Shown piece by piece: positions 4,980-45,999 of a stretch of 64,000 nucleotides of DNA. The stretch is from positions 1,899,154-1,963,153 of the forward strand of contig NC_013851.1 of assembly GCF_000025485.1 (NCBI RefSeq). The letters are read 5' to 3'. The translations under genes were made by a program, and so were the position numbers. Numbering within the stretch: the first letter of the stretch is position 1; each line of letters begins with the position of its first letter. The notes under the pieces are model-generated. The model was given only the letters and a program-made list of their open reading frames with translations, was not told where the DNA came from and ran no database searches. Source of the DNA: Allochromatium vinosum DSM 180. GTDB lineage: Bacteria; Pseudomonadota; Gammaproteobacteria; Chromatiales; Chromatiaceae.

Positions 4980-4989
4980 CAGTTCCTCC

Positions 4990-6663: not shown

Positions 6664-6707
6664 TACAGTCACAGAACCGTCATCGATCGTCAATAAAATC
6701 GATCGTC
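6664..6707 (+). promoter_or_regulatory. candidate Pho box and direct repeat upstream of phoB
   Basis: CAGTCAC (6666-6672) and CCGTCAT (6677-6683) are spaced 11 bp apart, the spacing of the two CTGTCAT-type half sites in a Pho box. Immediately after lies a direct repeat ATCGATCGTC (6682-6691 and 6698-6707) separated by AATAAA. Autoregulation of phoBR through a Pho box would be normal. The match is partial and is an inference. Confidence 0.35.
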
Positions 6708-6755
6708 CTCCAGCGCAGGCGCGCTGTTCCATTTCAGTCTTCAGGTTCCTTCCCC

Positions 6756-7442
6756 ATGACCACCATTCTTGTCATCGATGACGAGCCAGACATCCGCGAG
6801 GTGATGCGGTTCGCGCTCGAGAGTTCGGACTTCCGCGTCATGGAGGCCGGTCACGCCGACGAGGCGCGCAAGCTGTTGAGCAACGAGACCCCGGATCTCA
6901 TCCTGCTCGACTGGATGCTGCCCGGACGCTCCGGGCTGGAGCTGGCGCAGCAGCTCAAACAGAACCCCAAGACCAAGTCGATCCCGATCATCATGATCAG
7001 CGCGCGCGGCGAGGAAGAAGATCGGGTCAAGGGACTCGACACCGGCGCCGACGACTATATCGCCAAGCCTTTCTCGCCGCGCGAGATGGTGGCGCGCGTC
7101 AAGGCGGTGCTGCGGCGCGCGAAGCCGGACGAGGCCACCGACGAGATCGAGATCGGCGGTCTGGTGATGGACAATCTCGGGCATCGGGTCACGGCTGGCG
7201 GTCGCCCGATCGAGGTTGCACCGACCGAATACCGGCTGCTGCACTTCTTCATGGCCCATGCCGATCGCGCCTTCAGCCGTTCGCAGCTGCTCGATCAGGT
7301 CTGGGGCGATCAGGTCTATGTCGAAGAGCGCACCGTGGATGTGCATGTGCGCCGTCTGCGCAAGGCGCTGGAGCCGACCGGACACGACCGGCTGCTGCAA
7401 ACCGTGCGTGGCGTCGGCTATCGTTTCTCGGACAAGACTTGA
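6756..7442 (+). CDS. phoB: phosphate regulon response regulator PhoB
   Basis: Two-component regulator that activates phosphate-starvation genes. The receiver domain (residues 1-125) has the acidic pair DDE near residue 8, the phosphoacceptor D52 in LLDWMLPG and K in AKPFSPRE. The C-terminal winged helix (about 130-228) contains LLDQVWGDQVYVEERTVDVH and HVRRLRKAL, as in PhoB/OmpR. The 228 aa match E. coli PhoB (229). The stop overlaps the TTG start of phoR, so the pair is translationally coupled. Confidence 0.94.
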   Translation: MTTILVIDDEPDIREVMRFALESSDFRVMEAGHADEARKLLSNETPDLILLDWMLPGRSGLELAQQLKQNPKTKSIPIIMISARGEEEDRVKGLDTGADDYIAKPFSPREMVARVKAVLRRAKPDEATDEIEIGGLVMDNLGHRVTAGGRPIEVAPTEYRLLHFFMAHADRAFSRSQLLDQVWGDQVYVEERTVDVHVRRLRKALEPTGHDRLLQTVRGVGYRFSDKT

Positions 7443-8815
7443 GCGGCGCACGCTATCCGGCGTCGGTTCGGGGCGATCTGGGACGAGCCCTGCTGCTCGA
7501 TCTCGGGCTGCTGCTGGTGCCGGTCGCGCTGGGCCTGCTCATCACCGCATTCGGCCTCGACCCAGCCTGGATCTGGCCTTGGATCCTGCTCCCGACCCTG
7601 CTGCGTCATCCCTGGCTGCTGATCCGGCTCGCGCTCCTGATCCGGCGCCAGCATCGACTCGCCCCGCCCTTCCCGCTCGGACTCTGGGGCGAGGTCTATC
7701 GCGGGATCGCACGCTATCAGCAACGCGGGCGTAAGAGCCGCAAGCGTCAGATCCGCTTCAGCCGGCGTTTTCGCGAGGCCGCCAACGCTGTGCCCGATGC
7801 CCTGGTCATCCTCGACAAACAGCATCGCGTCGAGTGGGCCAATCCGGCCGCGGCCAAGCTGATGAACATCCGTTGGCCGGAGGACGATCGGCGTCCCTTC
7901 ACCGAGATCCTGACCCAGCCCGAGATCCTGCCCTTCATCGAGGCGGGCGAGTACATGCGCCCGCTCGACATCGCGCCCGAACACAACCGCGCCATCATGC
8001 TCTCGCTACGCATCACGCCCTTCGGCGAGCGCAAGAAGCAACGGTTAGTGGTCGGGCGTGACATCACCAAGATCTATCATCTCAACATGATCCGGCGCGA
8101 TTTCGTCGCCAACGCTTCGCACGAACTGCGCACGCCCCTGACCGTGATCGCCGGGTTCCTGGAGACCCTGCTCGACGCGCCCGGCACGCCGACCCCGCAT
8201 CGGCGTCCGCTGACCCTGATGCGCAACCAGACCGACCGCATGTGCTCGATCATCGAGGATCTGCTGACGCTCTCACGGCTGGAGATGCGCGAGAGTTCCG
8301 AGGAACAGGAGTCGGTGGACGTTCCCGACGAGCTGCATCTGATCCTGCAGGAGGCTCAGGCGCTGAGCAATGGCCGGCATGGTTTCGAGAGCCGGATCGA
8401 AGAGGATCTGCTGCTGCTCGGCAGTCCGCCCGAACTGCGCAGTGCGTTCTCCAATCTGGTCTTCAACGCCGTCAAGCACACACCCGACGGCACGCGCATC
8501 CAGGTCGTCTGGCAGCGTGGGATCGATGGGGTCGAATTCAGTGTCAGCGACGACGGTCCGGGCATTCCGCCCGAGCACCTGCCGCGGCTGACCGAGCGTT
8601 TCTACCGCGTCGACCGCGCGCGCTCGCGCGAATCGGGCGGAACGGGTCTGGGGCTGGCCATCGTCAAGCATGTGCTCAACCGGCACGATGGACGACTCAG
8701 GATCATGAGCGAGCTTGGACGCGGTTCGCGCTTCGTCTGCCGCTTTCCGGGCAAACGCGCCCTGATCCGGGACGATCGCGACGCGATGCCGGTCGATGAG
8801 CGTCCGGCACAGTAA
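7439..8815 (+). CDS. phoR: phosphate regulon sensor histidine kinase PhoR
   Basis: Membrane-bound histidine kinase partner of PhoB. Two N-terminal hydrophobic segments (about residues 15-60) are followed by a PAS domain (ALVILDKQHRVEWANPAA), HisKA with the phosphorylated His in NASHELRTPLTV, the N box (VFNAVKHTPDG), and ATP-lid motifs SDDGPGIPP and GGTGLGLAIVKH. At 458 aa it is near the usual 430. The TTG start overlaps the phoB stop by 4 bases. A downstream GTG about 10 codons in is an alternative. As in other PhoR, no large periplasmic sensor domain is present. Confidence 0.92.
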   Translation: MSGARYPASVRGDLGRALLLDLGLLLVPVALGLLITAFGLDPAWIWPWILLPTLLRHPWLLIRLALLIRRQHRLAPPFPLGLWGEVYRGIARYQQRGRKSRKRQIRFSRRFREAANAVPDALVILDKQHRVEWANPAAAKLMNIRWPEDDRRPFTEILTQPEILPFIEAGEYMRPLDIAPEHNRAIMLSLRITPFGERKKQRLVVGRDITKIYHLNMIRRDFVANASHELRTPLTVIAGFLETLLDAPGTPTPHRRPLTLMRNQTDRMCSIIEDLLTLSRLEMRESSEEQESVDVPDELHLILQEAQALSNGRHGFESRIEEDLLLLGSPPELRSAFSNLVFNAVKHTPDGTRIQVVWQRGIDGVEFSVSDDGPGIPPEHLPRLTERFYRVDRARSRESGGTGLGLAIVKHVLNRHDGRLRIMSELGRGSRFVCRFPGKRALIRDDRDAMPVDERPAQ

Positions 8816-8920
8816 GGCGCACGCCTGGACTCGTCGCCGGCCGAATCGGAATGGGGTGTCTGGAGAGGTCCAGGTCGACGTCTTGGCACGGACGGCCGCG
8901 CCGAACCTGGTTCGGAGGGA

Positions 8921-9283
8921 TCAGCCGAGGGCCGACATCGGGATACGCCGCTCATCGCCGTCATCGGACGAAACAGCGGAATCAGGCGACTGAGAATCCT
9001 GGAAGGCCAGGTTGACGCGATCGCGCAGTTCCTTGCCCGGCTTGAAGTGCGGGACGTGTTTGGCGGCCAGGGCGACCGACTCACCCGTCTTGGGATTGCG
9101 TCCGATGCGTGGCGGGCGGTAATGCAGCGAGAAACTGCCGAACCCCCGGATCTCGATCCGCTCCCCGGTAGCGAGCGCCGTGCTCATGCGCTCGAGGATC
9201 TTTCTGACCGCCTCCTCGACGTCTTTGTAAGGGAGATGGTCCTGGTCGGCGGCCAGAATGTCGATCAGCTCCGATTTCGTCAT
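8921..9283 (-). CDS. ihfB: integration host factor beta subunit with C-terminal tail
   Basis: DNA-bending nucleoid protein, the beta half of [14 protein letters not shown] at the start, the [18 protein letters not shown] arm and [10 protein letters not shown] are diagnostic. The protein is 120 aa where E. coli IhfB is 94, with an extra acidic-serine tail ([17 protein letters not shown]) after the family end. It is the last gene of the leftward aroA-cmk-rpsA-ihfB set, as in many Gammaproteobacteria. It is convergent with phoR, with a 105-bp spacer holding nothing I recognise. Confidence 0.92.
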
Positions 9284-33000: not shown

Positions 33001-33053
33001 ACCCAGCCGTGGCTGTATCAGGCCGGCATTCCCCATCGTCAAGGAACCTCTCC

Positions 33054-35288
33054 ATGTACTCACGACGCTCGTCACCCGTTCAGGCCGCGCTCGTCATTCA
33101 GTGTCTGGCCTGGTCTGGGGCGTACGCGCAGGAAACGATCACGCTCGAGACCATCGAGGTCGGCGCCGAGCGGATCCTGACACCGACCAAGCAGGCTGAA
33201 GAAACCGTGTACACCGGTGCCGCCCTGACGACCAGGGGGATCGAGATCCAGGGCGCCAAGGCCGCGATGCAGGTCTGGGGGGCGATCGATCTGCTGCCGG
33301 GCGTGAGCGCCGAGCAACCGGACAGCCGCGGACTGGGGGTGGAGCAATCGAGCGTGCGTCTGCGCGGAGTGCGCAGTTCGCTGGGCACCCTCACCGTGGA
33401 AGGGGTGCCGAACTACGGCGGCAACCCCATCGGTCCGCGGGATTCTCTCTATGACCTGGAGAACATGGAGTCGATCTCCGTCTACAAGGGCGCGGCCCCG
33501 GCCGACATCGGCACCGGCGTCGGCACGCGCGGCGGGGCCATCGTCCTGCATCCCAAATGGCCCGGCGAGGAAGCCGGCGCCGCGCTGAGTCAGCGGCTGG
33601 GTGGGAATGACTTCACGCGCACCCACGCGCGGCTGGAATCCGGACGGTTGAACGCGAGCGGCACCCGGATCGCCGGCGCGGCCTCCTATTCGGAGGCGGA
33701 CAAGTGGCGCGGCCCGGGGGATCTGGGGCCACGGATCAATGCCAATCTGGCGCTCGTCCAGCCGGTGAGCGAGGATCTCGAACTCAAGCTCTGGCTCAAT
33801 CACAACGACCAGGAACAGCACCTCTACCGGGCGCTGACCTATGCGCAGGTCGCCGGGGCGGGGGCGGATCTGGATCTGGATCTCGACTTCAACGCCCGGC
33901 GCACCGGGAACGCGGCCGATGACATCCATTACTACGACTACAACCGCGGCGCCTACCTCAATACCGATCTGCTCTCGGTCCTGACCTACCGGCCCAGTTC
34001 GGACACCCGCTTCACCCTCAAGCCCTACTACGCCAACGAGGACGCCAAGATCCTCCAGGGCACCACGGCGAGCGGCGGACGGGTTCAGGAGCGCAACCGC
34101 GACATCGAGCGCTGGGGTCTGATCGCCGAGGCCGGCACCGAATTCCAGGGGATCTCCGCTCTGCTCGGGTATCACTATGAGCACACGGATATGGAGATTA
34201 CCTCTGAGAATTACGCCATCACCCGCACCGGACTCAGTTATCGCGGCTACGGCGTGCTGGCGACCACCGGGACGACGCACATCCACAGCCCCTATGCCAA
34301 GCTCGCCGGCCGACTCGGTGCACTGAACTGGCAGGCCGGACTCAAATATTTCCAGTTCCAGGATGCTGCCAGCGACGGCTACACGACCGGCGGAGCGCCC
34401 GACTATGCCCTGGTGCGGGCATCCGACCTGGACCGCGAGGCGCGTTCCCATGACATCTGGCTGCCGTCGCTCGGCCTCTCCTACGACCTGACGCCCGAGA
34501 CCCAGCTCTATGCCAGCTATGGGCGGGGATTCATCCGTCCCTATTCCTACATGCCCATCATCAATACCTACAGCAGCAACCGCGCACGCTTCCAGGCCGC
34601 CGGGGTCACGCTGAACGAGCTGTTCGCCGGCTATGACATGGAGGAGTCCGATACCCTGGATCTCGGCCTGCGCTTTCGCGGCGAGCGTTTTGAGATCATG
34701 CCGACGCTCTTCTTCGGCCAATACCGGAACCTCCTGACCAGCGTGTCCGACTCCCGCGTACTGGTCAACGGCAAGCCGGTGAGCTACCAGCAGAACATCG
34801 GCGAGGCCACGGGCTACGGGCTGGAGCTGGCGATCAATGCCTATGTCTCGGACGCTCTCACGCTCTATCTCAACCCGACCTATACCCGCCTGACCTACGA
34901 CACGGATCTGACCTATCAGGGCACGACCCTCGACACCAAGGGCAAGCAGGTGGTCGACACGCCGGAGTGGATGGCGCGCGCGGGACTCATCTACCGGATC
35001 GGGGGCTTCGAGCTGCGCCCGGTGCTGCGCTACCTGGGCGAGCGTCATGGCGATTCCCGGCACGCCGAGTCGATCGACGCCGTGCTGCTCGCGGATCTGA
35101 CCCTGAGCTACAGCACCGAGCGGCTGTGGCCGGGCCGGACGCTCAAGGCGTCGCTGGAACTGACCAACCTGTTCGACGAAGACTATGTCGCGGTGATCAA
35201 CGCCTCGGACGACAGCCAGGGCGGAAGTGCCAGTTACTATCCGGGGGCGCCCTTCACGGCCATGCTGACGCTGGGGATCGAGCTGTGA
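33054..35288 (+). CDS. TonB-dependent outer membrane receptor (metal chelate)
   Basis: 744-aa outer-membrane beta-barrel. It has a signal peptide ending AYA (residues 1-25), a plug domain (about 40-170: TVEGVPNYGGNPIGPRDS and VYKGAAPADIG) and a barrel to the end. The barrel finishes LGIEL rather than with the usual final Phe. It lacks the FRAP and NPDL heme motifs seen in the receptor at 50.7 kb, so a ferric or other metal chelate is likelier. AAGGAA precedes the ATG. It overlaps the next gene by 4 bases and begins the operon of receptor, binding protein, permease, ATPase and DUF364 protein. Confidence 0.88.
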   Translation: MYSRRSSPVQAALVIQCLAWSGAYAQETITLETIEVGAERILTPTKQAEETVYTGAALTTRGIEIQGAKAAMQVWGAIDLLPGVSAEQPDSRGLGVEQSSVRLRGVRSSLGTLTVEGVPNYGGNPIGPRDSLYDLENMESISVYKGAAPADIGTGVGTRGGAIVLHPKWPGEEAGAALSQRLGGNDFTRTHARLESGRLNASGTRIAGAASYSEADKWRGPGDLGPRINANLALVQPVSEDLELKLWLNHNDQEQHLYRALTYAQVAGAGADLDLDLDFNARRTGNAADDIHYYDYNRGAYLNTDLLSVLTYRPSSDTRFTLKPYYANEDAKILQGTTASGGRVQERNRDIERWGLIAEAGTEFQGISALLGYHYEHTDMEITSENYAITRTGLSYRGYGVLATTGTTHIHSPYAKLAGRLGALNWQAGLKYFQFQDAASDGYTTGGAPDYALVRASDLDREARSHDIWLPSLGLSYDLTPETQLYASYGRGFIRPYSYMPIINTYSSNRARFQAAGVTLNELFAGYDMEESDTLDLGLRFRGERFEIMPTLFFGQYRNLLTSVSDSRVLVNGKPVSYQQNIGEATGYGLELAINAYVSDALTLYLNPTYTRLTYDTDLTYQGTTLDTKGKQVVDTPEWMARAGLIYRIGGFELRPVLRYLGERHGDSRHAESIDAVLLADLTLSYSTERLWPGRTLKASLELTNLFDEDYVAVINASDDSQGGSASYYPGAPFTAMLTLGIEL

Positions 35289-36340
35289 CAGCTTGCACGC
35301 GCCGACATGTCCTGGGTCTGTTGGTCGCCGGACTCGCCGCGCCCGTGTGGCGTTCGAGCAGCGCGGCTTCCGCCGAGCGGGTGCTGGCCGTCGGCCCAGG
35401 CGCGCTGCGGCTGTTGGCCTATCTGGAGGCGACCGAGCGTCTGGTCGGGTTGGAGGACATGGAGCGACGTCCGCTCTCGACCAGTAGCTATCGCTATGCG
35501 CTGCCGCCCGGATTGGCCGACCTGCCATCGATCGGACCCGGCGGTCCGGGCCGTCTGCCGGACCTGGAACAGCTATTGGCGCTGCGCCCGAATCTGGTCG
35601 CGACCGTCACCCTCGACGGCCAGCAGCTCCAGGCATTGCGCGAGCGCGCCGGACTCCGAGTGCTGCCGTTGAGCTATGGCGACACCGGCCTGCTGCGGAT
35701 CGATGACCTGCTGACCTCGCTGCGTGCCTTGGCCGCCGCTCTGGGCCGGGAGGCACGCGCCGAGCAGCTGGCCGGATTCCTGACCGCCAACCTGGCCGAA
35801 CTACGCGAGCGGCTGGCCGATGCCACGCCGGCGGCGGCCTATCTGGGCGGCGTCAGCCTCCAGGGTGCCCATGGCCTCACCAGCACCCAGTCGGGACATC
35901 TGCCGCTCGTCTGGGCGGGCGCCGACAATCTGGCGGACCGGGCTGGACCCACCGGGCATTTCTTCATCGACCGCGAACAGCTCCTGCTCTGGGATCCGCC
36001 GACGCTCTTCATCGATGGCGGCGGGCTGGCCGGTGTCCTGACCGAGTACGCCGAAAATCCCGGCTTCTACCAACGTCTGCAAGCGGTACGCGAAGGCCGG
36101 GTCTATCTGACCCTGCCCTTCAACGCCTATAACACCAATGTCGAGAACGCCCTGGCCAATGCCTGGATGATGGCCAGGGTGCTTCACCCCGCCGCCCTGG
36201 CGGATCTCGATGTGCCGACCCGGGCAGGCGCCATCATGCGGACCTTCCTCGGCGCAGACGTCATGCCGGCCCTGGCCCGCAACGGCCAGGGTCTGGGCCG
36301 GCTGGATCTGGAGACCGGACAGTGGACGCCGCTGTCCTGA
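35285..36340 (+). CDS. ABC transporter periplasmic metal-chelate binding protein
   Basis: 351-aa FecB/BtuF-type helical-backbone binding protein. The N-terminus TRRHVLGLL looks like a twin-arginine signal, followed by a Sec-like hydrophobic core. Segments RVLAVGPGALRLLAYL and LLALRPNLVATVTLDG are typical of the fold. It delivers ligand from the outer-membrane receptor to the permease. The GTG start overlaps the receptor stop by 4 bases; its own end overlaps the permease gene by 19 bases. The ligand is not known. Confidence 0.85.
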   Translation: MTACTRRHVLGLLVAGLAAPVWRSSSAASAERVLAVGPGALRLLAYLEATERLVGLEDMERRPLSTSSYRYALPPGLADLPSIGPGGPGRLPDLEQLLALRPNLVATVTLDGQQLQALRERAGLRVLPLSYGDTGLLRIDDLLTSLRALAAALGREARAEQLAGFLTANLAELRERLADATPAAAYLGGVSLQGAHGLTSTQSGHLPLVWAGADNLADRAGPTGHFFIDREQLLLWDPPTLFIDGGGLAGVLTEYAENPGFYQRLQAVREGRVYLTLPFNAYNTNVENALANAWMMARVLHPAALADLDVPTRAGAIMRTFLGADVMPALARNGQGLGRLDLETGQWTPLS

Positions 36341-37398
36341 GTGCGCCGCGCGCGGTCTTCCAGCGCCAGACCGGGCGGCGTCTGCTGACAGGTGTGGCGC
36401 TCCTGATCCTGCTGGCCGGACTGATGATCTATGCCCTGGGTCAGGGCAGTTATGCACTCACGCCCGAAGCCGTCCTGGCCGCGCTGTTCGGCGGCCCCGG
36501 AGCCGCCGATCCGGCGGCACACGTCATCTGGTCGATCCGTCTGCCGCGTCTGCTCGCGGCCCTGCTCGCCGGCATGAGCCTGGGTCTGGCGGGGGCTGTC
36601 ATGCAGAGCGTGCTGCGCAATCCGCTCGCCTCGCCGATGACGCTCGGGGTCTCTCAGGGTGCAGCCCTGGGCGCCACCTGCGCCATCGTGCTGCTGGGTG
36701 CGGGCGAGCTGAACCGGCTGGGACCGAGCGCAGTGGTCATCCAGGAACCCTCTCTGGTGGTCGGCGCCGCCCTGATCGGGGGACTCGGAACCGCCGGCGC
36801 CATCCTGCTGCTGGCCCTGCTGCGCGGGTTGCGCCCCGAGGCGCTGGTGCTGGCCGGCATCGCGCTCGGGGCCTTCTCCAGCGCCGGAACCATGCTGGTG
36901 CAGTATTTCGCCACCGAGACCCAGGCGGCGGCGACCCTGTTCTGGACCTTCGGCGATCTCGGCAAGGCGGGTTGGCGCGAGGTCGCCTGGCTGGCGGCCA
37001 TGCTCGTACCGCTGTTTCTGCTGCTGAAGCGCGCGGCCTGGTCGCTCAACGCCCTGGCCTGGGGCGAGGACAGCGCGCGCGCGCTCGGGGTGGCAGTCGG
37101 TCCACTGCGTCTGTGGGCACTGGCAGCGGGCGCCGTGCTTGCAGCGGTGGCCACGGCCTTCCTCGGCGTGATCGGCTTCGTCGGACTCATCGCGCCGCAT
37201 CTGGTGCGCTTGCTGATCGGGGCCGACCATCGCTATCTGCTGCCCTACGCCGCGCTGGCGGGGGCGATCGTACTGCTCGGCGCCGATACCCTGGGCCGCC
37301 TGATCATCGCCCCCGTGGTGCTGCCGGTCGGGGCGGTCACGGCCATGCTCGGCGCGCCCCTGCTGCTGGCGCTGCTGCTGCGGCGGCGGAGTCACTGA
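36322..37398 (+). CDS. FecCD-family ABC transporter permease
   Basis: 358-aa inner membrane permease with about ten hydrophobic segments. FecCD signatures include LLAALLAGMSLGLAGAVMQ, NPLASPMTLGVSQGAA and GVIGFVGLIAPHLVRLLIG. It starts at GTG inside the end of the binding-protein gene. With the following ATPase it forms the import pump for a siderophore-type or metal chelate. Confidence 0.9.
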   Translation: MDAAVLSAPRAVFQRQTGRRLLTGVALLILLAGLMIYALGQGSYALTPEAVLAALFGGPGAADPAAHVIWSIRLPRLLAALLAGMSLGLAGAVMQSVLRNPLASPMTLGVSQGAALGATCAIVLLGAGELNRLGPSAVVIQEPSLVVGAALIGGLGTAGAILLLALLRGLRPEALVLAGIALGAFSSAGTMLVQYFATETQAAATLFWTFGDLGKAGWREVAWLAAMLVPLFLLLKRAAWSLNALAWGEDSARALGVAVGPLRLWALAAGAVLAAVATAFLGVIGFVGLIAPHLVRLLIGADHRYLLPYAALAGAIVLLGADTLGRLIIAPVVLPVGAVTAMLGAPLLLALLLRRRSH

Positions 37399-37399
37399 G

Positions 37400-38149
37400 A
37401 TGCTCGAGATCCGCGATCTCGGTCTGGGCTATGGCGAGCGTATCCTGGTGCGCGGGCTGGATCTGGCGGTGCCGGCGGGCGAGGTGCTGGCGGTACTCGG
37501 TCCGAACGGCGCGGGCAAGTCGACGCTGCTCAAGGCGCTGGCCCATCTGCTCCGACCCCGGACCGGAACCCTGCACCTGGACGGCGTTCCTCTCACCGGC
37601 CTTGGCCGCGCGACCCGGGCGCAGCGCGTCGCCTATCTGCCCCAGCAATCGCCGCCCGTGGCCGTCACCGTCTACGAGGCCGTTCTGCTCGGGCGTCTTC
37701 CGCATCTCGGCTGGCAGGTCGCGGACGCCGATCTGGCGCTGGTCGACGACATCCTCGCGCATCTCGGCCTGAGCGCCTTCGCCGGACGGCTCTGTACCGA
37801 ACTCAGCGGCGGCGAGCTGCAAAAGGTGCTGATCGGACGCGCCTTGGCGCAGACGCCGCGCCTGCTGCTGCTCGACGAGCCGGTCAATCATCTGGATCTG
37901 GCCAATCAGCTCGAGGTGCTGGCCCTGATCCGGCAAACGGCCCGCGACCGCGATCTGGCCATCCTGGTGGTGCTGCACGACCTCAATCTGGCGCTGCGTT
38001 TCGCCGACCACTTCCTGCTGCTCGACGGTGCCGGCGGTCATGACGCCGGGGCCATGACGACCCTGACCCCGGAGCAGATCGAGCGGGTCTACCGGGTGTC
38101 GGTGGTCCGCCATGACTTGGCCGGGCATTCGCTCTTCATCCCCCGGTGA
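37400..38149 (+). CDS. ABC transporter ATPase of the metal-chelate importer
   Basis: 249-aa ATPase of the FecE/FhuC/BtuD type. Walker A GPNGAGKST, signature LSGGELQKVLIGRALA and Walker B LLLLDEPVNHLD are visible. It starts 1 bp after the permease stop, and its end overlaps the DUF364 gene by 4 bases. Confidence 0.9.
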   Translation: MLEIRDLGLGYGERILVRGLDLAVPAGEVLAVLGPNGAGKSTLLKALAHLLRPRTGTLHLDGVPLTGLGRATRAQRVAYLPQQSPPVAVTVYEAVLLGRLPHLGWQVADADLALVDDILAHLGLSAFAGRLCTELSGGELQKVLIGRALAQTPRLLLLDEPVNHLDLANQLEVLALIRQTARDRDLAILVVLHDLNLALRFADHFLLLDGAGGHDAGAMTTLTPEQIERVYRVSVVRHDLAGHSLFIPR

Positions 38150-39018
38150 ATCCCGTGACTGACGATACCCGCTGGCCGAGTGATCCCCTGCTCGAAACCC
38201 TGGCCCGCCGCGCGGTCGACGATCTGGCCAGACATCCGCTGGTCCTGGAGGATCTGAGCCTCGGCCAGCCCATCTCCTGGGCGCTGGTCCGCGACCGGAA
38301 CGGACAGCGCGCGCTCGGCCTGGCCCTGACGCCGGCTGGCGAGTCCGGCTCGCCGGGGCCGCGCCATGCCGGGCTACCGCTCGACTGGAGCGAATGGCCG
38401 CTGCATGAGCTCCCCGGCCGGATCCTGGCCGACCATCCGCTGGAGCGCTGTCTCGCGCTGGCGGTCATCAACGCCATCTCGCAGCATCGTCTGGCGCGTG
38501 AGGGATTCGCCGGCGTCGAGACCACGGAGGTTCGCCCGAGTGTGGTGCGCTGGGTCAGGGAACAGGAGGTGCGCCGCGTGGTGGTCATCGGCAACATGGG
38601 ACCGCTGGTGACCGGACTCGCCGAGGCGGGCGTTCCCCATGTGGTCTTCGAACGCAGCCCGGGCAATCGCGCCGGTGCCTTGCCCGACGCCCAGGAGTGG
38701 GCCTGGCTGCCCAGGGCCGATGGCCTCATCCTCACCGGCGCGACCCTGCTCAATCACACCCTGGCGCCGATCCTGGCGCTGGCGCGCGAGGCCCGTTTCA
38801 AATTGCTGGTCGGCTTCTCGGCCCAGGCGCACCCGGCGTTCCTGGCCGGATGCGGTGCCACGCACGTCTTCAGTCTGCACATCCGCCACATCGATCGGGT
38901 TCGCCGGCTGTTGCAAGTCGGCCACTGGAATTCCATGTTCGAGACCGAGATGGGCTATCTCGCTCGCCTCAATAGCGAGGCGTCGTCGCCTGACGTCATC
39001 TCAGACGGGGTGAGATGA
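38146..39018 (+). CDS. DUF364 putative heavy-metal chelation protein
   Basis: 290-aa cytoplasmic protein of the DUF4213/DUF364 family, found beside FecCD importers and thought to handle the metal that comes in. Segments INAISQHRLAREGFAG, VRRVVVIGNMGPLVTGLA and ADGLILTGATLLNHTL fit the family. It is last in the importer operon, overlapped with the ATPase by 4 bases. Its 3' end overlaps the convergent P-type ATPase gene by 18 bp. Confidence 0.8.
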   Translation: MNPVTDDTRWPSDPLLETLARRAVDDLARHPLVLEDLSLGQPISWALVRDRNGQRALGLALTPAGESGSPGPRHAGLPLDWSEWPLHELPGRILADHPLERCLALAVINAISQHRLAREGFAGVETTEVRPSVVRWVREQEVRRVVVIGNMGPLVTGLAEAGVPHVVFERSPGNRAGALPDAQEWAWLPRADGLILTGATLLNHTLAPILALAREARFKLLVGFSAQAHPAFLAGCGATHVFSLHIRHIDRVRRLLQVGHWNSMFETEMGYLARLNSEASSPDVISDGVR

Positions 39019-41124
39019 CTCCGCCTCCCTGATCACCGACCCGCTCTCCGTCAGTCGCGCGCCCCGCAGGGCGTTGACCAACACCCCGAGCGTGGTGCCG
39101 TTGTGCAGCAGCGCGCTGGCGACGGGCGAGAGCCGGCCCATGAGTGCGCCGGCCATGATGGCGGTGTTGATGCCGACGGTGGCATTGAAGTTGGTGCGGA
39201 TGATGCGCATGGTGCCGAACGCGATCTCGCGCGCGTCGGCGACCGCGAGCAGACGATCGTCGGTGAGCACGATATCGGCACTCGCCCGCGCCAGATCCGC
39301 TCCGCGCGACATGGCGATCCCGACATCGGCCGCGACCAGCGCCGGGCCGTCGTTGATGCCGTCGCCGACGAAACCGACCTTGCGCCCCTCGCGCTGAAGC
39401 GCGGTGATGAGCGCCGCCTTCTCCTCCGGCCGCACCTCGCCGTGGACCTGGTCGAGCCGCAGCGTCCGCCCCAGCGCCTCCGCCTTCTCCTGACGATCGC
39501 CCGAGATCATCACCAGCCGCTCGATCCCGAGCGCACGCAGCCGCTCCAGGGTCGCCTCGGCGTCCGCGCGCAGGGTGTCGCGCAGCGCGATCAGACCCAT
39601 GGGGCCATGCTCGCTGGCGACATAGAGCAGCGTCTTGCCTTCGTCGAGCAGGCGTTTGACCTGCATCTCGTGGGCGTCGAAGCGGATGCCTTCGTGCTCT
39701 TCCAGATAGTGGCGGCTACCGACGATGATCCGGCAGCAGTCGAGCTGGGCGTTGAGTCCATGGGCGACCATGTAGTCGACCTCGCCGTGCGAGATGTGCT
39801 GGAGGTCGCGCTCGCGCGCCGCCTCGACCACGGCCTGGGACAGGGGGTGGGTGGCATGTTCCTCGACCGAGGCGACCATGGCGAGCAGGGCTTCCTCCGA
39901 CTCGCCGCAGCGCGGATCCAGCACCACGACATCGGTGACTTCCAGCTCGCTGTGGGTCAGGGTTCCGGTTTTGTCGAACACCAGGGTATCGATCTCGGCC
40001 AGACGCTCCATGGCCTCGCCGCCCTTGATCAGCACCCCATGGTTGGCCGCCTCGTAGAGACCGGACTTGAAGGCGACCGGGGTGCCGAGCTTGAGCGCGC
40101 AGGAATAGTCGACCAGGAACACCGACTGCACGCGCGTCAGATCGCGTGTCAGGGCATAGACGGCCGCCGCCGAGCCGAGCGTGAGATAGACCCGCTGGTC
40201 GGCCAGTTCGTCGGCCAGACGCTGGGTCTCGGAACTCTTGTCGAGCGATTCCTGGATGAAGCGGGCGACGCGGGCGGTGGTGGTGTCCTCGCCGACCCGG
40301 GTCGCCCGGATGCGCAACCGGCCCTCGACCAGCACCGAACCGGCGACCACGCGCTTGGGCGCCTCGCGCGCGACCGGCACGTCTTCGCCGGTGACGGCGG
40401 CCTGATTGACCAGGGCCGCGCCCTCGACCACGTAACCGTCGACCGGAATGGTCTCGCCGACACCGACGACCAGGGTCTCGCCGGCCTGCACCTGATCGCC
40501 CGGGATCTGGACGAGCTGTCCATCGCGCTCGACCCAGGCGAGGGTCGGCGCCGGGCGCAGCAACCGGCGCAGCAGACGGTCGGACTGCCGCTGGGTGCGT
40601 TCCTCCAGATACTCGCCGAGCGTGAGCAGGAGATCGGTGATATTCGCGGTGTAGAGCTTGCCGCGACTCGCCGACAGACCGACGGCCAGGGCGTCCAGCA
40701 CCTCGACCTTGACGCCTTCGTGAATCAGGGTGTCCGCCCCCTTGACCAGCTTGGTGCCGATGTTCAGGTAGGTCGCCACATGCTGGGCCGGACGCGGCAG
40801 CAGCGGCAGCAGCAGGAGCGTCAGAACGTTGCGCACCAGCGGCGTGACGGACGGCTCGTCCGCCGGCTCGCGATGCGTCTCCAGCGGTTCTCCCGGCTTG
40901 AAATCGGCGAGTCTCGCCAGCAGCCGCTCCCGAGGGAGCAGGCGCGGGTCGAAGTCGATGGCGAGACTGCGCGCGGCGCGGTTGAGGCGCACGTCCAGGA
41001 CGCCATCCAGCGATTCGAGCCAGTAGCGCAGCGGCTCACCGACGCTGGCCGCCGCCAGCGCCGGAACGCGCAGGCGCAGCCGGCCAGACAGCTCATGGAG
41101 GATGCGGTAGGGAACCGAGGTCAT
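39001..41124 (-). CDS. P1B-type heavy-metal ATPase with SCA transmembrane motif (FezB-like candidate)
   Basis: 707-aa ion pump with the P-type motifs VTGE (about 244), DKTGT (phosphorylated D384), HP (426-427) and GDGINDGP (about 587). The metal-site motif normally CPC, SPC or TPC reads SCA (DYSCALKLGTP, about 339-349). The N-terminus has an arginine-rich SGRLRLRV stretch (13-20) and no CxxC metal domain. I recall these two features from the P1B-6 group that includes FezB of ferrosomes; that link is from memory and is an inference. The ATG overlaps the previous small gene by 4 bases (ATGA); it is the last gene of a five-gene coupled operon. Confidence 0.88.
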   Translation of the reverse strand: MTSVPYRILHELSGRLRLRVPALAAASVGEPLRYWLESLDGVLDVRLNRAARSLAIDFDPRLLPRERLLARLADFKPGEPLETHREPADEPSVTPLVRNVLTLLLLPLLPRPAQHVATYLNIGTKLVKGADTLIHEGVKVEVLDALAVGLSASRGKLYTANITDLLLTLGEYLEERTQRQSDRLLRRLLRPAPTLAWVERDGQLVQIPGDQVQAGETLVVGVGETIPVDGYVVEGAALVNQAAVTGEDVPVAREAPKRVVAGSVLVEGRLRIRATRVGEDTTTARVARFIQESLDKSSETQRLADELADQRVYLTLGSAAAVYALTRDLTRVQSVFLVDYSCALKLGTPVAFKSGLYEAANHGVLIKGGEAMERLAEIDTLVFDKTGTLTHSELEVTDVVVLDPRCGESEEALLAMVASVEEHATHPLSQAVVEAARERDLQHISHGEVDYMVAHGLNAQLDCCRIIVGSRHYLEEHEGIRFDAHEMQVKRLLDEGKTLLYVASEHGPMGLIALRDTLRADAEATLERLRALGIERLVMISGDRQEKAEALGRTLRLDQVHGEVRPEEKAALITALQREGRKVGFVGDGINDGPALVAADVGIAMSRGADLARASADIVLTDDRLLAVADAREIAFGTMRIIRTNFNATVGINTAIMAGALMGRLSPVASALLHNGTTLGVLVNALRGARLTESGSVIREAESSHPV

Positions 41125-41528
41125 CCATCCTTGCTCTGCTGACTGTGATGCAGTTCCGCCGCCGCGTCGCCGAAGCGCTCCTTGACCTCCTCGATGCCAC
41201 CCTGCAACAACGACCAGGTCTTGACGAGGCCCTTGATGGCTGTGCGCTGCACCTGCTCGTTGGTGACCAGATAGGTGACGGCGGCGCCGATCATCAGTCC
41301 CTTGAGGAAGCGGTCGTTGGGCAGGCTGAACAGCGAACGGTTGGGCTGTTGCTGTTGCTGATAGTAGGCTGGATGGGCATACGGATAGGCCGGCGGCATG
41401 CCGGGCTGAGCGGCACCCATGCCCTGCCCTTGTCCCTGTGACTGGCCCGGTCCCGGATAGCCGCCGGGGGTCTGACCGCCGGCGTACTGACCGGCGCCCG
41501 GAAACGGCTGATAGTTGTAATGGCTCAT
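41121..41528 (-). CDS. Q/G/P/Y-rich small protein with one membrane segment (fez-like operon gene 4)
   Basis: 135-aa protein with a low-complexity N-terminus (GGYPGPGQSQGQGQGM, then YYQQQQQPN) and a hydrophobic segment FLKGLMIGAAVTYLVTNE, then a helical C-terminus (EEVKERFGDAAAELHH). The segment FLKGLMIGAA...VTNEQVQ matches FWKGALVGAA...LTSGSVQ in the first gene of the operon, so the two share a module. It overlaps its neighbours by 4 bases on each side. Confidence 0.78.
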   Translation of the reverse strand: MSHYNYQPFPGAGQYAGGQTPGGYPGPGQSQGQGQGMGAAQPGMPPAYPYAHPAYYQQQQQPNRSLFSLPNDRFLKGLMIGAAVTYLVTNEQVQRTAIKGLVKTWSLLQGGIEEVKERFGDAAAELHHSQQSKDG

Positions 41529-41707
41529 GCTGGATCTCCCGAAGTGGCTGGAGTCGTGGATGGAGTCGGGTCGGTGTCGGCGCTACGGCGTTTGACGAGG
41601 CCGCGCATCAGGAGCACCAGGGCGGCGCCGACCAGGACGCCGCCGACGCCCTCGACGAGCTTCTTTTTCACGCCGTGCTGATGGCGTTGCGGGCTGTATT
41701 GACTCAT
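41525..41707 (-). CDS. 60-aa single-pass membrane protein (fez-like operon gene 3)
   Basis: Small protein with a basic start (HQHGVKKKLVEG), one glycine-rich helix (VGGVLVGAALVLLMRGLV) and a Pro/Thr tail. The start ATG overlaps the stop of the 122-aa gene, and its stop overlaps the start of the 135-aa gene. I know no named family. Very short, but held in the fully coupled operon. Confidence 0.7.
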   Translation of the reverse strand: MSQYSPQRHQHGVKKKLVEGVGGVLVGAALVLLMRGLVKRRSADTDPTPSTTPATSGDPA

Positions 41708-42072
41708 GAGGTCTCCTCACTGCCGGTCATCCGGCTCTGGATTCCATAGACGACCGCCGTGCCGATCAGGAACATGAGTCCCAGCCGGCCAAAACCCTGG
41801 TCGGAGACGCTGGAGGCGATGGCGCCCGCCGCCGCCGTGGCGACACCGCCGATGACGGCGGTACGGGTAGTCTCGACCAGCGCGCCCTGCGGGGTCTGGG
41901 TGCCGGACTGAAAACGCCGGATCTGTTGAGCCGCCGCCGCGCTGCCGGCAACGATGGCGCCGGTGGTCGCCAGACGCATCAGGGCCGCACAATCCGGAGC
42001 GGTCTGCGGGTGGGGTGGATAGACGGGGCCGGCCGGAACCGGGTAGTAGCGCGGTTCGTAGTGCGTGCTCAT
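41704..42072 (-). CDS. 122-aa Gly/Ala-rich membrane protein (fez-like operon gene 2)
   Basis: Pro/Tyr-rich N-terminus (RYYPVPAGPVYPPHPQ), then three Gly/Ala-rich hydrophobic stretches (LATTGAIVAGSAAAA, AVIGGVATAAAGAIAS and GLMFLIGTAVVYGI). No known catalytic motif. Such Ala/Gly helices can pack tightly in membranes, as seen in organelle-shaping proteins, but this is a guess. Coupled by ATGA to both neighbours. Confidence 0.75.
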   Translation of the reverse strand: MSTHYEPRYYPVPAGPVYPPHPQTAPDCAALMRLATTGAIVAGSAAAAQQIRRFQSGTQTPQGALVETTRTAVIGGVATAAAGAIASSVSDQGFGRLGLMFLIGTAVVYGIQSRMTGSEETS

Positions 42073-42824
42073 GCGCTCGAATCCTTGCCGCCGTTGCCGT
42101 TGGAGCCAAACAGCGCACTCTGGACCGAACCGCTGGTCAGCAGCAGCACGGCAGCGGCGCCGACCAGCGCGCCCTTCCAGAAGTCCGGGTCGTCGAAGTT
42201 CAGCATCTTGGAGATCGTGGACAACCCATTGCCGCCATTGGCGACCTCGTTGACGAGATCGCTCACGCTGGCTCCATGGGCCTGACCGGCACCATGTGCC
42301 GCACCATGGGCATAGCCCTGATGCGGCGCCTGGAAAGCCTCGGGCGGATAGGGATAGGCACCCGGCGGCGGGGGTGGCGGCGGATAACCGGCATATTGGC
42401 CGTAGTACATCGCGGCGGCGGCGTAGTGCGGAGCGGTCTGATGATAGCCCGGAGCGAATGCGGGCTGAGCCGTGTGGGGCTGTCCGTAGCCAGGCGGCAT
42501 GGCGCCTGCGCCGCCGTGCATGAAGGGCTCCCGCCCTGAGACCGGCCCCATGGATTCGCCGTAGCCCGGCTGATTGCCCTGGGGTGCGACATAGCCCTGC
42601 GGCTGGCCCTGAGCCGCCCCGTAGCCGGGCTGACCGCCGGCGGACTCGCTACGGCCGGGTTGGCTGCCCTGGGACAGGCCGGCCTGAGCCTCGCCGTAAC
42701 CACCGGCGGCCCCCGGCCCCTCCGGCCCTTTCGCGGCGCCCTCGGACGAGCCGCCGTATCCCTGCGTCTCCATGCCCGGACGCTGCTCTGGCGCGCCGCG
42801 CGCGCCGCTTTGGTGATCGCTCAT
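42069..42824 (-). CDS. 251-aa low-complexity Gly/Pro/Gln/Tyr protein with C-terminal membrane segment (fez-like operon gene 1)
   Basis: First gene of the operon. Residues 1-190 are disordered: repeated QPGYG, GYGQPH and YPPPPPPPGAYPYPPE segments. The C-terminal part has a short amphipathic portion, then FWKGALVGAAAVLLLTSG and a glycine-rich tail. The ATG at 42824 has GGAG 8 bp before it; a start at 42896 would add 24 unlikely residues. Behind it, about 104 bp upstream, is the Fur-like palindrome. Function unknown; likely a compartment or scaffold component if the ferrosome reading is right. Confidence 0.75.
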   Translation of the reverse strand: MSDHQSGARGAPEQRPGMETQGYGGSSEGAAKGPEGPGAAGGYGEAQAGLSQGSQPGRSESAGGQPGYGAAQGQPQGYVAPQGNQPGYGESMGPVSGREPFMHGGAGAMPPGYGQPHTAQPAFAPGYHQTAPHYAAAAMYYGQYAGYPPPPPPPGAYPYPPEAFQAPHQGYAHGAAHGAGQAHGASVSDLVNEVANGGNGLSTISKMLNFDDPDFWKGALVGAAAVLLLTSGSVQSALFGSNGNGGKDSSA

Positions 42825-42925
42825 CGGATTCTCCAATCGTGTTTGACCCTTTAGAGATGCCGGCCGCCCACGCAAGCGGCCGACACGTGCCGCCAAGGTT
42901 ACCGCAATTCGGGCGCGGAATGTAG

Positions 42926-42945
42926 ATGAGAATGCTTATTCTCTT
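42926..42945 (-). promoter_or_regulatory. Fur-box-like palindrome upstream of the five-gene operon
   Basis: ATGAGAATGCTTATTCTCTT contains GAGAAT, GCTT, ATTCTC (42928-42943), a 6-bp perfect dyad that resembles Fur sites of the GAGAATNATTATC type. It lies 104 bp before the first gene. Iron control of a metal pump operon would fit. Confidence 0.6.
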
Positions 42946-43170
42946 CCATCTCATGATCGGACAATGGGGCGCGGTGGCGGCGACAAACGCCACGGTGTTC
43001 AGCACCTCTGGCCGGCTGTTCGCTGAACGGCGGCAATACAGTATAGGTCGTGTGGTAAACGATACAACGTCCCATCAGCTCGCCGAGCCGACGCGGGGGA
43101 TGGTCCCCGTCACCCCGTCCATTGCTGGAGGTTTTTTCAGTGGTGCGGTCGAACACGCCAAACTTGGAGA
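42944..43170. other. spacer between the fez-like operon and the yeeZ-like gene
   Basis: No gene is supported here. A short open frame on the plus strand across 42926-43216 has no ribosome site and an unlikely composition. On the minus strand TTGTAT (complement of 43062-43067) and TATACT (complement of 43040-43045) with 16-bp spacing look like a sigma70 promoter, starting near 43033 and reading toward the operon. The Fur-like palindrome then lies downstream of that start. Confidence 0.5.
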
Positions 43171-44076
43171 TCACGGAACGCGCTCAGCCGCAATGGCGTG
43201 CAATCCCTCACGATAGGTCGGATAGCGCAGCTGCACGCCCAGCTCCTGCTTGATGCGCTCATTGCTGAGACGCTTGCACTCGGCATAGAAATGTCGCGCG
43301 AAGGGCGAGAGTTCAGCCTCCTCGAAGCGCACGGCCGGCGGCGGCTCGACGCCGATGAGAACGGCGGCATGGCACAGCACCGTGTCGGCCGGCGCGGGCT
43401 GGTCGTCGGCGACGTTGTAGATCCGCCCGGCGCTCGGCCGCTCCATCGAGGCCAGGAGGACGGTCACGAGGTCGTCGACATGGATGCGATTGAACACCTG
43501 CCCCGGCTTGAGGATGCGCCGGGCGCGGCCGGATTCGAGCGCATCGATCACGCTGCGTCCTGCGGGACCATAGATACCCGGTAGCCGGAAGATGTGCGTC
43601 GGCGACGCCGTCCGCGCTCCGAGATCCAGCCAGACGCTCTCGGCCTCCAGGCGACGCTGATTCTCCAGCGTGGCCGGGTTGGGCGTGCGTGTCTCGTCGA
43701 TCCAGTCGCCGCCGCAGTCGCCGTAGACACCTGTCGTGGAGAGATAGCCGATCCAGGCCAGAGACCCGCCGCGCGCCTCCAGAGTCTTTCCGTGCAGACG
43801 CCACGCCGGATCGCCATCCGCCTCGGGAGGGATGGAGACCAGCAGATGCGTCGCCCCGGCCAGGGCCTCCCTGACCTCCGGACTCGATTGGTGGCCGTCG
43901 AACACCAGGGCCTGGATGCCCTGCGTGCGCAGGGCCTGGGCCTTCCCGGCATCGCGGCAGGTGCCCGCCACGCGCCAGCCGTGCGCGATGGCCGCCTGCG
44001 CCAGACGGGTGCCTGTGTAGCCGAGACCGAAGCAGAACAGCGATGGAGTCGGCATGTTGCGAAGGCCTGTGCTCAT
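43171..44076 (-). CDS. YeeZ-like NAD(P)-dependent epimerase/dehydratase family protein
   Basis: 301-aa extended-SDR protein with the N-terminal nucleotide motif FGLGYTGTRLAQ, a YLSTTGVYGD segment (the catalytic Tyr lies in this region in YeeZ) and a C-terminal FNRIHVDDL. YeeZ relatives have no proven substrate. It overlaps the hutX gene by 4 bases (ATGA) and closes the haem-related operon CpxP-like, hutW, hutX, yeeZ. The link to haem is only by context. Confidence 0.8.
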   Translation of the reverse strand: MSTGLRNMPTPSLFCFGLGYTGTRLAQAAIAHGWRVAGTCRDAGKAQALRTQGIQALVFDGHQSSPEVREALAGATHLLVSIPPEADGDPAWRLHGKTLEARGGSLAWIGYLSTTGVYGDCGGDWIDETRTPNPATLENQRRLEAESVWLDLGARTASPTHIFRLPGIYGPAGRSVIDALESGRARRILKPGQVFNRIHVDDLVTVLLASMERPSAGRIYNVADDQPAPADTVLCHAAVLIGVEPPPAVRFEEAELSPFARHFYAECKRLSNERIKQELGVQLRYPTYREGLHAIAAERVP

Positions 44077-44585
44077 TGATCGGTCGTGAGTGCGTCCCGC
44101 AGCGCCAGGAACCGCTCGACCTGCTTGGGAATGAGCCGGCGCTGTGCGTCGCGCCCGAGATAGACCTTGAACATGCAGTCACCCTGACGGTTGTAGAACT
44201 GCACCGAATGGGTGTCGCATTGGAACAGCTTGCGCGAGACGAACACGATGAGATCGCAGTTGGCGGCCTTGAGATGTCCGCCGACCGGCTGGCCGTGCAG
44301 GTTGTAGTAACCCTGAGACACATGCCCCCCTGGCAGCGGCCCCCGGACCTCCAGGATGACGTCGCCGGTGTTGATCACCAGGGTCAGCTCGCCCCAGCTC
44401 GAGAGCTCGAGCATCACGGCCTCGAAATGACCGCCATCGATCGAACGGGCCTCGCTCTCCGGCAGCCAGTAAATTACATCCCGTGTCTTCACCCCATGTT
44501 CCCTGGCGAGATCCTCCAGCACGGCGCCTGGATTGCTCTGTAGTGACGCACGGATGGCGTCGCTCTGTGTTTCGGTGAGTGTCAT
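44073..44585 (-). CDS. hutX: haem utilisation carrier HutX
   Basis: 170-aa cytoplasmic haem-binding protein that passes haem to HutZ- or HutW-type enzymes. The N-terminal helical part (AIRASLQSNPGAVLEDLARE) is followed by the SH3-like haem-binding region (GGHLKAANCDLIVFVSRKLF). The start at 44585 fits the family. It ends overlapped with yeeZ and begins 11 bp after the hutW stop. Confidence 0.85.
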   Translation of the reverse strand: MTLTETQSDAIRASLQSNPGAVLEDLAREHGVKTRDVIYWLPESEARSIDGGHFEAVMLELSSWGELTLVINTGDVILEVRGPLPGGHVSQGYYNLHGQPVGGHLKAANCDLIVFVSRKLFQCDTHSVQFYNRQGDCMFKVYLGRDAQRRLIPKQVERFLALRDALTTDQ

Positions 44586-44595
44586 GCGGGGTTCC

Positions 44596-45999
44596 TCAGG
44601 CAAGTGCGGCGGGCCGTTCCACGGGAGCGGCGCCGTCGCGAAGACGTTGATCCAGCCATTCGAGCAGATTCTGGGTCAGGGTCACCTGCCAGAACCGGCC
44701 CGCCAGGGTGAGTTCGAGCCAGCGTCCGTCCCGTGTCAGCAATCCGGCGCCCTGCCATTGATCGAGCAGCGGTCCGGCGACCTGCTCCAGGTCGAGTCCG
44801 GTCGTCGTCGCAAGCCGGTCGGCGAGTGCCCACTGGTCCAGCCGGCCGCGCTCCAGACCGCCCTTGATGCCATCGAGCAACCCATGGTGGGGCGACAGAC
44901 GCATGAGACCGCCGAGCAGCGGCCGGCCCGGACGCACGTACTCGGCATACTCGGCCACGTCGGCCAGGATGCGGTAGGAATGACCGCCCAGACAGCCGCC
45001 GGCGCCGGCGCCGAAGGCCAGACACTGGGCGCCGGCCTTGATCTCCAGGTTGTAGAGGTTGCGCTCGCGGGTGCTGCGGCGCCAATGACTCGACGACAGC
45101 GGCTCCCAGCGTGCCTCGTCCATCAACTCCGCCCCACGCGCATAGAAGGCGCCGTGCGACTCGACTGCCGCCGGCTCGAGCTTGCCGGCACGCGCCGCGA
45201 TCGCCAGCGGTGTCTGTGGCATGAGCTTGAGCGCATAGAGGTCCAGGCCGTCCAGACCCAGACCGATGGCGGTGCGCACGTCCTCCTCCCAGACCTCGGG
45301 TGTCTGACCCGGCAGTCCATAGATGAGATCGACGATCACGGCACCCCGGTCGGCCGCCACCAGATCCTCGAGCCGCCGGAGCAGCGTCCCGCGCTCGGTC
45401 CTGCGACCCAGACGCCGGCGCACGTCCTGGTCGAAACTCTGCACGCCGATCGACAGACGATTGACTCCGGCGTCGAAGAGCGCCTGTGCTTTGTCCGGTT
45501 CCAGATCACGCGCCCGACCCTCGACCGTGATCTCGCAATCAGGCGCCAGCGGCAGATGCTCGCGTGCGGCCGTGATCACGCGTGCCAGTTCGCGGGTCGA
45601 CAGCAGCGTCGGCGTGCCGCCGCCGACATAGACGGCCTGGATCGGTCCCTCGGCCTGATAGGGTCGGTCCCGGTCGCGCTTCAGATGCTCCACCAGCGCC
45701 TCCGCATAGACGGCTCCAGCCGACTCATGCCAGGTGTTCTGGTAGAAACCGCAGAAGAGGCAGTGACTCTCACAGAAGGGGATGTGCAGATAGGCGACCG
45801 ACTTTCCCGAGCGTGCGGCGGACGTCATCTCGGTCCAGGTGCGCGACCACTCCGACTCAGGCACCGGCGACAGGCCCACGAAGGGATGGACGGCGCGGCG
45901 CCCGGCGAAGGCGTTGGCCAGGGGATCGGTTCCCTCTTGGGCGTGGAAAGCCTCAATGGGCTTCCAGGGGCGTGGTTCCATGGGACGGCTGGCGCTCAT
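44596..45999 (-). CDS. hutW: HutW-type radical SAM haem-degrading enzyme (anaerobilin synthase family)
   Basis: 467-aa radical SAM protein with the cluster motif HIPFCESHCLFCGF (CxxxCxxC) near residue 75 and VYVGGGTPTLL, in the HemN-like class. The HutW branch opens the haem ring under anaerobic conditions, releasing iron. The ATG overlaps the CpxP-like stop by 4 bases. With HutX downstream it forms the typical hutWX pair. Consistent with an anaerobic phototroph. Confidence 0.88.
   Translation of the reverse strand: MSASRPMEPRPWKPIEAFHAQEGTDPLANAFAGRRAVHPFVGLSPVPESEWSRTWTEMTSAARSGKSVAYLHIPFCESHCLFCGFYQNTWHESAGAVYAEALVEHLKRDRDRPYQAEGPIQAVYVGGGTPTLLSTRELARVITAAREHLPLAPDCEITVEGRARDLEPDKAQALFDAGVNRLSIGVQSFDQDVRRRLGRRTERGTLLRRLEDLVAADRGAVIVDLIYGLPGQTPEVWEEDVRTAIGLGLDGLDLYALKLMPQTPLAIAARAGKLEPAAVESHGAFYARGAELMDEARWEPLSSSHWRRSTRERNLYNLEIKAGAQCLAFGAGAGGCLGGHSYRILADVAEYAEYVRPGRPLLGGLMRLSPHHGLLDGIKGGLERGRLDQWALADRLATTTGLDLEQVAGPLLDQWQGAGLLTRDGRWLELTLAGRFWQVTLTQNLLEWLDQRLRDGAAPVERPAALA

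Follow-up and report, generated by a model that had tools for sequence, protein, structure and literature searches.

We analysed a stretch of 64,000 nucleotides from the genome of Allochromatium vinosum DSM 180 (contig NC_013851.1, positions 1,899,154 to 1,963,153 of the forward strand; hereafter the window), in which five consecutive open reading frames on the minus strand, running from 42824 to 39001, form an operon that ends with a P1B-type ATPase (Table 1). An earlier note on this DNA had proposed these genes as a candidate ferrosome (fez-type) cluster, ferrosomes being membrane-bound iron-storage granules. Each start codon overlaps the preceding stop codon by an ATGA, and the coordinates and all four overlaps described in that note were verified, as were the DYSCALKLGTP site of the pump, its SGRLRLRV stretch and the lack of an N-terminal CxxC, all three of which we found in the gene 5 translation. 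Its description of the other four products as Gly/Ala/Pro/Gln-rich proteins with few membrane spans held for the composition of genes 1 and 4 (20% Gly in gene 1; 17% Gly, 16% Pro, 17% Gln and 11% Tyr in the N-terminal part of gene 4) and for the spans of genes 1 to 3, with one hydrophobic stretch each in genes 1 and 3 and two in gene 2; the single stretch in gene 4 is weak and falls under the hydropathy cut.

Table 1. Features of the operon and its 5' flank, with positions in the window.
Feature	Position	Strand	Description
Gene 1 (F1)	42069..42824	-	251 amino acids; N-terminal region rich in Gly, Ala, Pro and Gln; single C-terminal hydrophobic segment FDDPDFWKGALVGAAAVLLL; paralogous to gene 4
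Gene 2 (F2)	41704..42072	-	122 amino acids; MamC-family helical membrane protein
Gene 3 (F3)	41525..41707	-	60 amino acids; single-span; QRHGVKKxLVEGxGG-type motif
Gene 4 (F4)	41121..41528	-	135 amino acids; low-complexity N-terminal region and charged helical tail; immediately upstream of the ATPase
Gene 5, FezB-like P1B-type ATPase	39001..41124	-	707 amino acids
SCA motif DYSCALKLGTP, replacing CPC/SPC	40078..40110	-	ATPase residues 339-349
SGRLRLRV in N-terminal HMA-like domain without CxxC	41065..41088	-	ATPase residues 13-20
Imperfect inverted repeat	42925..42946	.	5' of the operon; overlaps a weak Fur-like site; function unproven

Gene 5 was assigned to the P1B ATPases by the NCBIfam model TIGR01525 (E 8.8e-149, 496.9 bits against a cut-off of 346.25) and retains the DKTGT, SCA and GDGIND motifs; R15 and R17 of its SGRLRLRV stretch are shared by all 12 of the pumps aligned. 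Its AlphaFold2 model has a P1B fold (predicted local distance difference test score, pLDDT, 81), in whose membrane part we count eight helices, and its PDB neighbours are headed by Cu and Zn P1B pumps, the nearest being 4bbj. We take the SCA motif to be a mark of the P1B-6 class. In a tree that took in 77 of the 127 pumps, built with the motif columns excluded (a quick tree with no bootstrap, in which P1B-4 and P1B-5 references are unlabelled), the window pump lies within a 51-row SCA clade (Shimodaira-Hasegawa-like approximate likelihood ratio test, SH-aLRT, 93; the tool's mark is 95), and the CPC pumps lie past a branch of 99. Of 52 rows that carry the D[YF]xC signature, 51 fall in this single group, which adjoins six cysteine-less pumps (99). 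It splits in two, with pumps of Mailhella (a member of the Desulfovibrionaceae), Duodenibacillus, Firmicutes, Methanobrevibacter and a few others on one side and the window pump with mostly proteobacterial pumps on the other. By sequence, the window pump groups as a P1B-6/FezB-like ATPase, apart from the Cu, Zn and Cd pumps. Clustering with Cu, Zn or Co exporters had been named in the earlier note as an outcome that would refute its proposal; on the position of the pump in the SCA clade we rejected a Cu/Zn-type exporter. Two CPC-type (CopA/ZntA-like) pumps of the same genome share the P1B class and are related in sequence (38% identity over window-pump residues 161-687 and 35% over 137-697), but carry ACPCA and TCPCA motifs and fall on the opposite side of the tree.

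Relatives of the pump, with the A. vinosum genome counted each time, were found in 38 of 146 genomes of the window's family (E ≤ 1e-130), 2 of 274 of its class (E ≤ 1e-150) and 8 of 398 of its phylum (E ≤ 1e-110), together with 12 plasmid records from Azospirillum, Arcobacter, Cereibacter and Vibrio (E ≤ 1e-120); a scan of genome contigs covered the best 80 of 588 stretches, so that it carries no weight that R. palustris or Shewanella did not appear in it. Iterative profiles built over 129 loci resolved the small genes into four families, F1 to F4, whose linkage to the pump was counted in 127 loci (L004 and the truncated L068 were dropped), with ATPases from other taxa as controls. A member of F1 or F4 lies within 4.5 kb of the pump in 47 of 81 SCA-type loci, which are related and not 81 independent cases, versus 0 of 46 other ATPases. 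The corresponding counts are 39 of 81 versus 0 of 46 for F2 and 24 of 81 versus 0 of 46 for F3, and the flanking DNA fetched for the two CPC pumps of A. vinosum, 1.5 kb either side, contained no F1, F2 or F4 gene. The arrangement of F1/F4 with the pump is beyond chance, and these small genes were found near SCA-type pumps only, whereas the earlier note would have been refuted by small genes confined to unrelated exporters together with a lack of granules. The typical gene order is (HMA2)-F1-F2-(F3)-F4-pump, and the same small genes occur in the subclade of the window pump in several proteobacterial classes and two further phyla; the 34 SCA-type loci with no F1 or F4 belong mostly to the Firmicutes-type part of the group. 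In a second sample, from another order of the same phylum, 36 of 317 genomes have a pump at E ≤ 1e-110, and among 12 of those 36 clusters that were examined F4 was present in all 12 and F2 in 11, part of the F2 matches being weak (16-64 bits).

Genes 1 and 4 are paralogues, because the F1 and F4 profiles retrieve each other, and they have in common a segment of the form WKGALVGAAxxLLLTN / LKGLxIGAAxxYLLTN. Neither this paralogy nor the family membership of gene 2 discussed below had been noticed in the earlier note. The counterpart of gene 4 in an Azospirillum relative has a YtxH-like tail. Gene 3 returned zero Pfam or NCBIfam matches, and F3 was found in 24 of the 129 loci, every one of them from the window's family; by its sequence, gene 3 represents a lineage-specific family without a name. 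Pfam matches to SARAF and Tecti-min-caps scored below the cut-offs and were dismissed as chance.

MamC (Mms13) is a membrane protein of magnetosomes, the magnetic organelles of magnetotactic bacteria. Gene 2 matched the NCBIfam MamC model NF038051 (E 3.8e-10, 39.9 bits), as did 11 of 11 aligned F2 proteins, and because its score lies under the equivalog cut-off of 100 bits we regard it as a MamC relative and not as MamC itself. In the opposite direction, the F2 profile matched all 20 MamC loci (1.4e-13 to 6.1e-18; 15 distinct stretches) kept from 23 places at which full-score MamC occurs in 21 of 55 genomes of another family. The F2 and MamC profiles scored 98.5% in hhalign (E 2.2e-15) over 92 columns, most of the protein, and a further MamC (L181) scored 52.2 bits on the F2 profile, the maximum over 2000 shuffles being 7.7. 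The homology is seen by profiles only, because pairwise BLAST of the F2 protein P0002 against one MamC was non-significant (E 0.10). Searching PDB sequences with the F2 profile yielded matches at chance level only (best E 0.033). For gene 2, AlphaFold2 returned an only fair model (pLDDT 63) with three helices (25-55, 61-89 and 95-121). Judged by these profile comparisons, gene 2 belongs to a MamC superfamily that is wider than the NF038051 equivalog. A site that is K in 20 of 20 MamC proteins is K or R in 39 of 42 F2 rows, and a loop site that is D in 19 and E in one of the 20 is D or E in 25 of the 42, including E in the window. At a neighbouring site, where 18 of 20 MamC proteins have E, only 10 of 42 F2 rows do, the window protein having G. 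Other loop residues of MamC are lost in F2, for instance one that is E in all 20 MamC proteins and non-E in the F2 types listed. No other magnetosome gene was recognised in the operon.

When NF038051 was run over 116 whole genomes of the window's family, 28 were positive at E ≤ 0.01; one of these (G329) exceeded the cut-off and a second (G363) has MamC in two pieces, the best at 80.5 bits. The remaining 26 genomes are all among the 38 that are pump-positive, and in 24 of them the match lies on the pump contig within about 4 kb, by coordinates. The exceptions are G340, a fragmented assembly with the match on a different contig, and G352, whose match lies in a cluster with an inactive pump. The counting runs from match to pump, and at least one pump-positive genome (G289, with the pump on a 5.5 kb contig) has no NF038051 match. 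Additional matches were to a second F2 in an F1-F2 pair of G304 and a marginal one in G293 (0.0075) that contains stop codons. None of 14 control genomes matched, and across the 116 family genomes and 14 controls nearly all matches are either fez-like clusters or MamC of magnetotactic type. The full-score MamC of G329 (L181; G329 C1:280000-291000) adjoins a gene that we read as MamO-like, in a magnetosome-type region within the window's own family.

A tree of F2 and MamC was built from 57 rows and 79 columns; eight near-duplicate F2 loci and short stretches had been removed beforehand, which cost three of the second sample's 11 F2 rows. MamC formed one clade (99/93) nested in F2 under midpoint rooting, which is an arbitrary root, and the nodes on the path to MamC had supports of 97/83 and 98/85 with two weak ones between (81/65 and 85/68) and a long-branch neighbour (L093); an earlier F2 tree with a single MamC had not settled its position. 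Four genomes (G904, G921, G934 and G948) have both a full-score MamC and a FezB-like pump. We tentatively suggest, with somewhat more doubt than confidence, that MamC arose as a specialised branch of a ferrosome-cluster protein that is widespread and encoded beside a FezB-like pump in at least three phyla, and that magnetosome crystal control was partly recruited from an older iron-storage organelle. If so, the ferrosome member should control the nucleation or size of granules, as MamC does for magnetite.

The operon is most likely a ferrosome-type (fez-like) cluster, of a variant that lacks FezC and carries a membrane protein of the MamC family. What the sequences show is the structure of the operon, the class and predicted fold of its pump, the conserved co-occurrence and the MamC homology. 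Like the ferrosome clusters of Desulfovibrio magneticus, Rhodopseudomonas palustris (six fez genes; PMC12016538, in part) and Clostridioides difficile, it has an SCA-type P1B pump adjoining several small membrane proteins, here F1, a MamC-family protein, F3 and F4. The mechanism we propose, which covers vesicle formation, the Fe(II) substrate, the direction of pumping, topology and a role for each small protein, would begin with the insertion of the four small proteins into a membrane vesicle or invagination. The products of genes 1 and 4, as paired single-span proteins with Gly/Pro/Tyr/Gln-rich arms, would coat and shape the vesicle with the assistance of the gene 3 product, and the FezB-like ATPase would move Fe(II) from the cytoplasm to the lumen via its SCA site. 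The MamC-family protein, its charged loop toward the lumen, might aid nucleation of the growing iron granule or limit it. The putative filling of vesicles with Fe(II) is transferred from FezB, which is termed a putative ferrous iron transporter in part of PMC11334425, and from a table in PMC7558416 that pairs P1B-6 with Fe(II). The suggested role of gene 2 in mineral control is transferred in the same way from magnetosome MamC, whose loop, according to a section of PMC12199438, regulates crystallisation, possibly via iron oxide binding.

An alternative is that the pump exports Fe(II) or another metal across the plasma membrane, with the small proteins as accessory subunits and no organelle. 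P1B pumps as a class are described as exporters in a part of PMC7558416, and the N-terminal domain of the window pump is without a CxxC metal site, so that its cargo may differ. However, several co-inherited, low-complexity small membrane proteins together with a MamC-family protein, and elsewhere with a FezC-like protein, would be unexpected of a simple exporter, and we consider plasma-membrane efflux unlikely.

Several points weigh against a ferrosome-type operon. Its granules and its transport activity are predictions from the genes. The comparison with FezB rests on relatives of ferrosome makers (Mailhella, Rhodomicrobium and Firmicutes) and not on genomes with proven ferrosomes, such as those of R. 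palustris, S. putrefaciens, D. magneticus and C. difficile. The SCA label is imperfectly diagnostic: L125, alone among the 52 rows so labelled, groups with the CPC pumps, and two loci (L079 and L101) read DYACP. Five proteobacterial-type pumps have no F1 or F4 nearby, two of them on short contigs. FezA, which we take to be DUF6110, has no demonstrable counterpart in the operon; F4 scored 8.7% against DUF6110 in hhalign, a result on which we dropped the identity of F4 and FezA as a firm claim, and a bridging family (A9) scored 94% against F4 and 55% against DUF6110 over 26 columns. A FezC-like protein is absent from the cluster, and a search of the A. vinosum genome for one was empty at E ≤ 1, an empty result being weak evidence. 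The metal-chelate importer at 33009-39018 (TonB receptor, substrate-binding protein, FecCD, ATP-binding cassette ATPase and DUF364), whose convergent position had been offered in the earlier note as a sign of iron storage, is not conserved; 20 downstream stretches of 5.7-16 kb contained no DUF364, no TonB receptor and a single FecCD, and we rejected it as a conserved partner. Finally, a passage of a 2016 paper (PMC4932525) states that P1B-6 pumps had never been biochemically examined at that date. The fez-type cluster originally proposed is partly supported, through the class of the pump and its conserved small partners.

The sister subclade is informative on both of these proteins. A protein of 88-110 amino acids precedes the pump in 5 of the 10 sister-subclade loci listed (L097, L098, L102, L108 and L133), and the two of these that were tested both match DUF6110 (7.5e-39 and 1.9e-7). 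This layout of a small protein followed by the pump is as expected of the FezA-FezB pair of C. difficile, described in part of PMC12574912. FezC, a DUF4405-like heme b protein of ferrosomes (PMC11334425, in the part available), appears not to be required of every ferrosome cluster, because the available part of PMC12574912 does not list it with the genes of C. difficile. FezC-like proteins, which have a pair of conserved His within a short membrane region, were found in 13 of the 129 loci, including that of Mailhella and nine clusters with MamC-type genes; DUF4405 matched five of the six tested (2.9e-5 to 0.046, all below the family cut-off) and gave no match to that of L095. Such proteins are present in some sister clusters of the window's operon and not in the operon itself, and because FezC was not found we do not class it as a cluster of the D. 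magneticus type. In L096 the pump cluster has beside it, at 8416-9018, a second FezC-like membrane region, whose C-terminal extension is longer and by eye resembles a STAS domain.

The same membrane-shaping kit could instead serve an organelle or granule with non-iron content, either a different divalent metal or phosphate that takes iron along as a passenger. The substrate is indeed deduced solely from the class of the pump and its neighbours, and the adjacent importer is of a type (DUF364, FecCD) that is not metal-specific by sequence. Iron is nevertheless favoured by the FeoA and TonB receptors flanking the Cereibacter cluster, by what look by eye like a FeoB-like GTPase and a Fur-like regulator near the Coprococcus pump, and by the MamC homology, which points toward an iron mineral. 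Ferritin- or rubrerythrin-like genes (including DUF2202-like ones) in 6 of the 129 loci point the same way, with Pfam matches that are weak and below the cut-offs. We judge non-iron content very improbable. That the operon is a decaying or non-functional remnant is scarcely credible, for although dead copies are known (a G352 FezB paralogue without DKTGT, SCA and GDGIND, and a truncated copy in G344), the window copy keeps all three motifs, its gene overlaps are intact, and a relative to which it is 87% identical has an open frame.

Ferrosome clusters as such are already known. As far as our searches show, what is new is the MamC homology and its linkage to a FezB-like pump, the pairing of F1 and F4 as paralogues, the F3 family and the FezC-less version of the cluster in the window's family. 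No statement of homology between MamC and a ferrosome protein was found in the literature searched, including the available parts of PMC12713370, PMC12778047 and PMC12199438, and the founding papers (Grant 2022; Pi 2023) may mention it. The shared family offers a direct handle on how bacteria build iron organelles and on what, if anything, links ferrosomes to magnetosomes, and it would allow MamC of magnetic bacteria to be studied alongside a relative that belongs to another kind of iron organelle. In addition, F2 would serve as a marker of ferrosome clusters beyond the pump, and ferrosomes are predicted in the 38 of 146 genomes of the window's family, A. vinosum included, that have a close pump.

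A Fur-like site upstream had been cited in the earlier note as fitting iron storage, but it is a poor one, the best matching 13 of 19 positions against a background of 32 window matches at ≥12/19 on both strands, and the 19-mer Fur consensus had zero matches in the window at ≤3 mismatches. As for the importer genes, L081 and L092 have relatives of FecCD close to the pump, and the Azospirillum pump faces a convergent gene of DUF6925 and not of DUF364. Upstream of the operon, at 43171-45999, are an epimerase, HutX and a HutW-like radical S-adenosylmethionine protein, which are heme-iron genes; this set recurs solely in L046 within the related loci searched, whose upstream DNA is in many cases short.

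Several related loci have unusual copies of these genes. In L183 (G352 C11:82000-91000; 5157-7016), a full F1-F2-F3-F4 cluster accompanies a pump paralogue without the phosphorylation site, SCA or GDGIND, a pseudo-ATPase retained in frame. L068 (G344 C1:1266700-1276000; 6185-7324) is a truncated second pump copy, ~95-96% identical to the window pump, in a genome of the window's genus whose full copy is merely 64% identical to it, and is possibly a remnant of horizontal transfer. An F1-F2 pair distant from the main cluster occurs in L184 (G304 C1:2540500-2549500; 4342-5113), with the pump absent from the stretch fetched. Lastly, the A. vinosum genome itself encodes, unlinked to the operon, two neighbouring HMA2-type proteins (L187, C1:2399000-2410000; 4247-5297) that have a PGRxRxR stretch in common with the pump N-termini.

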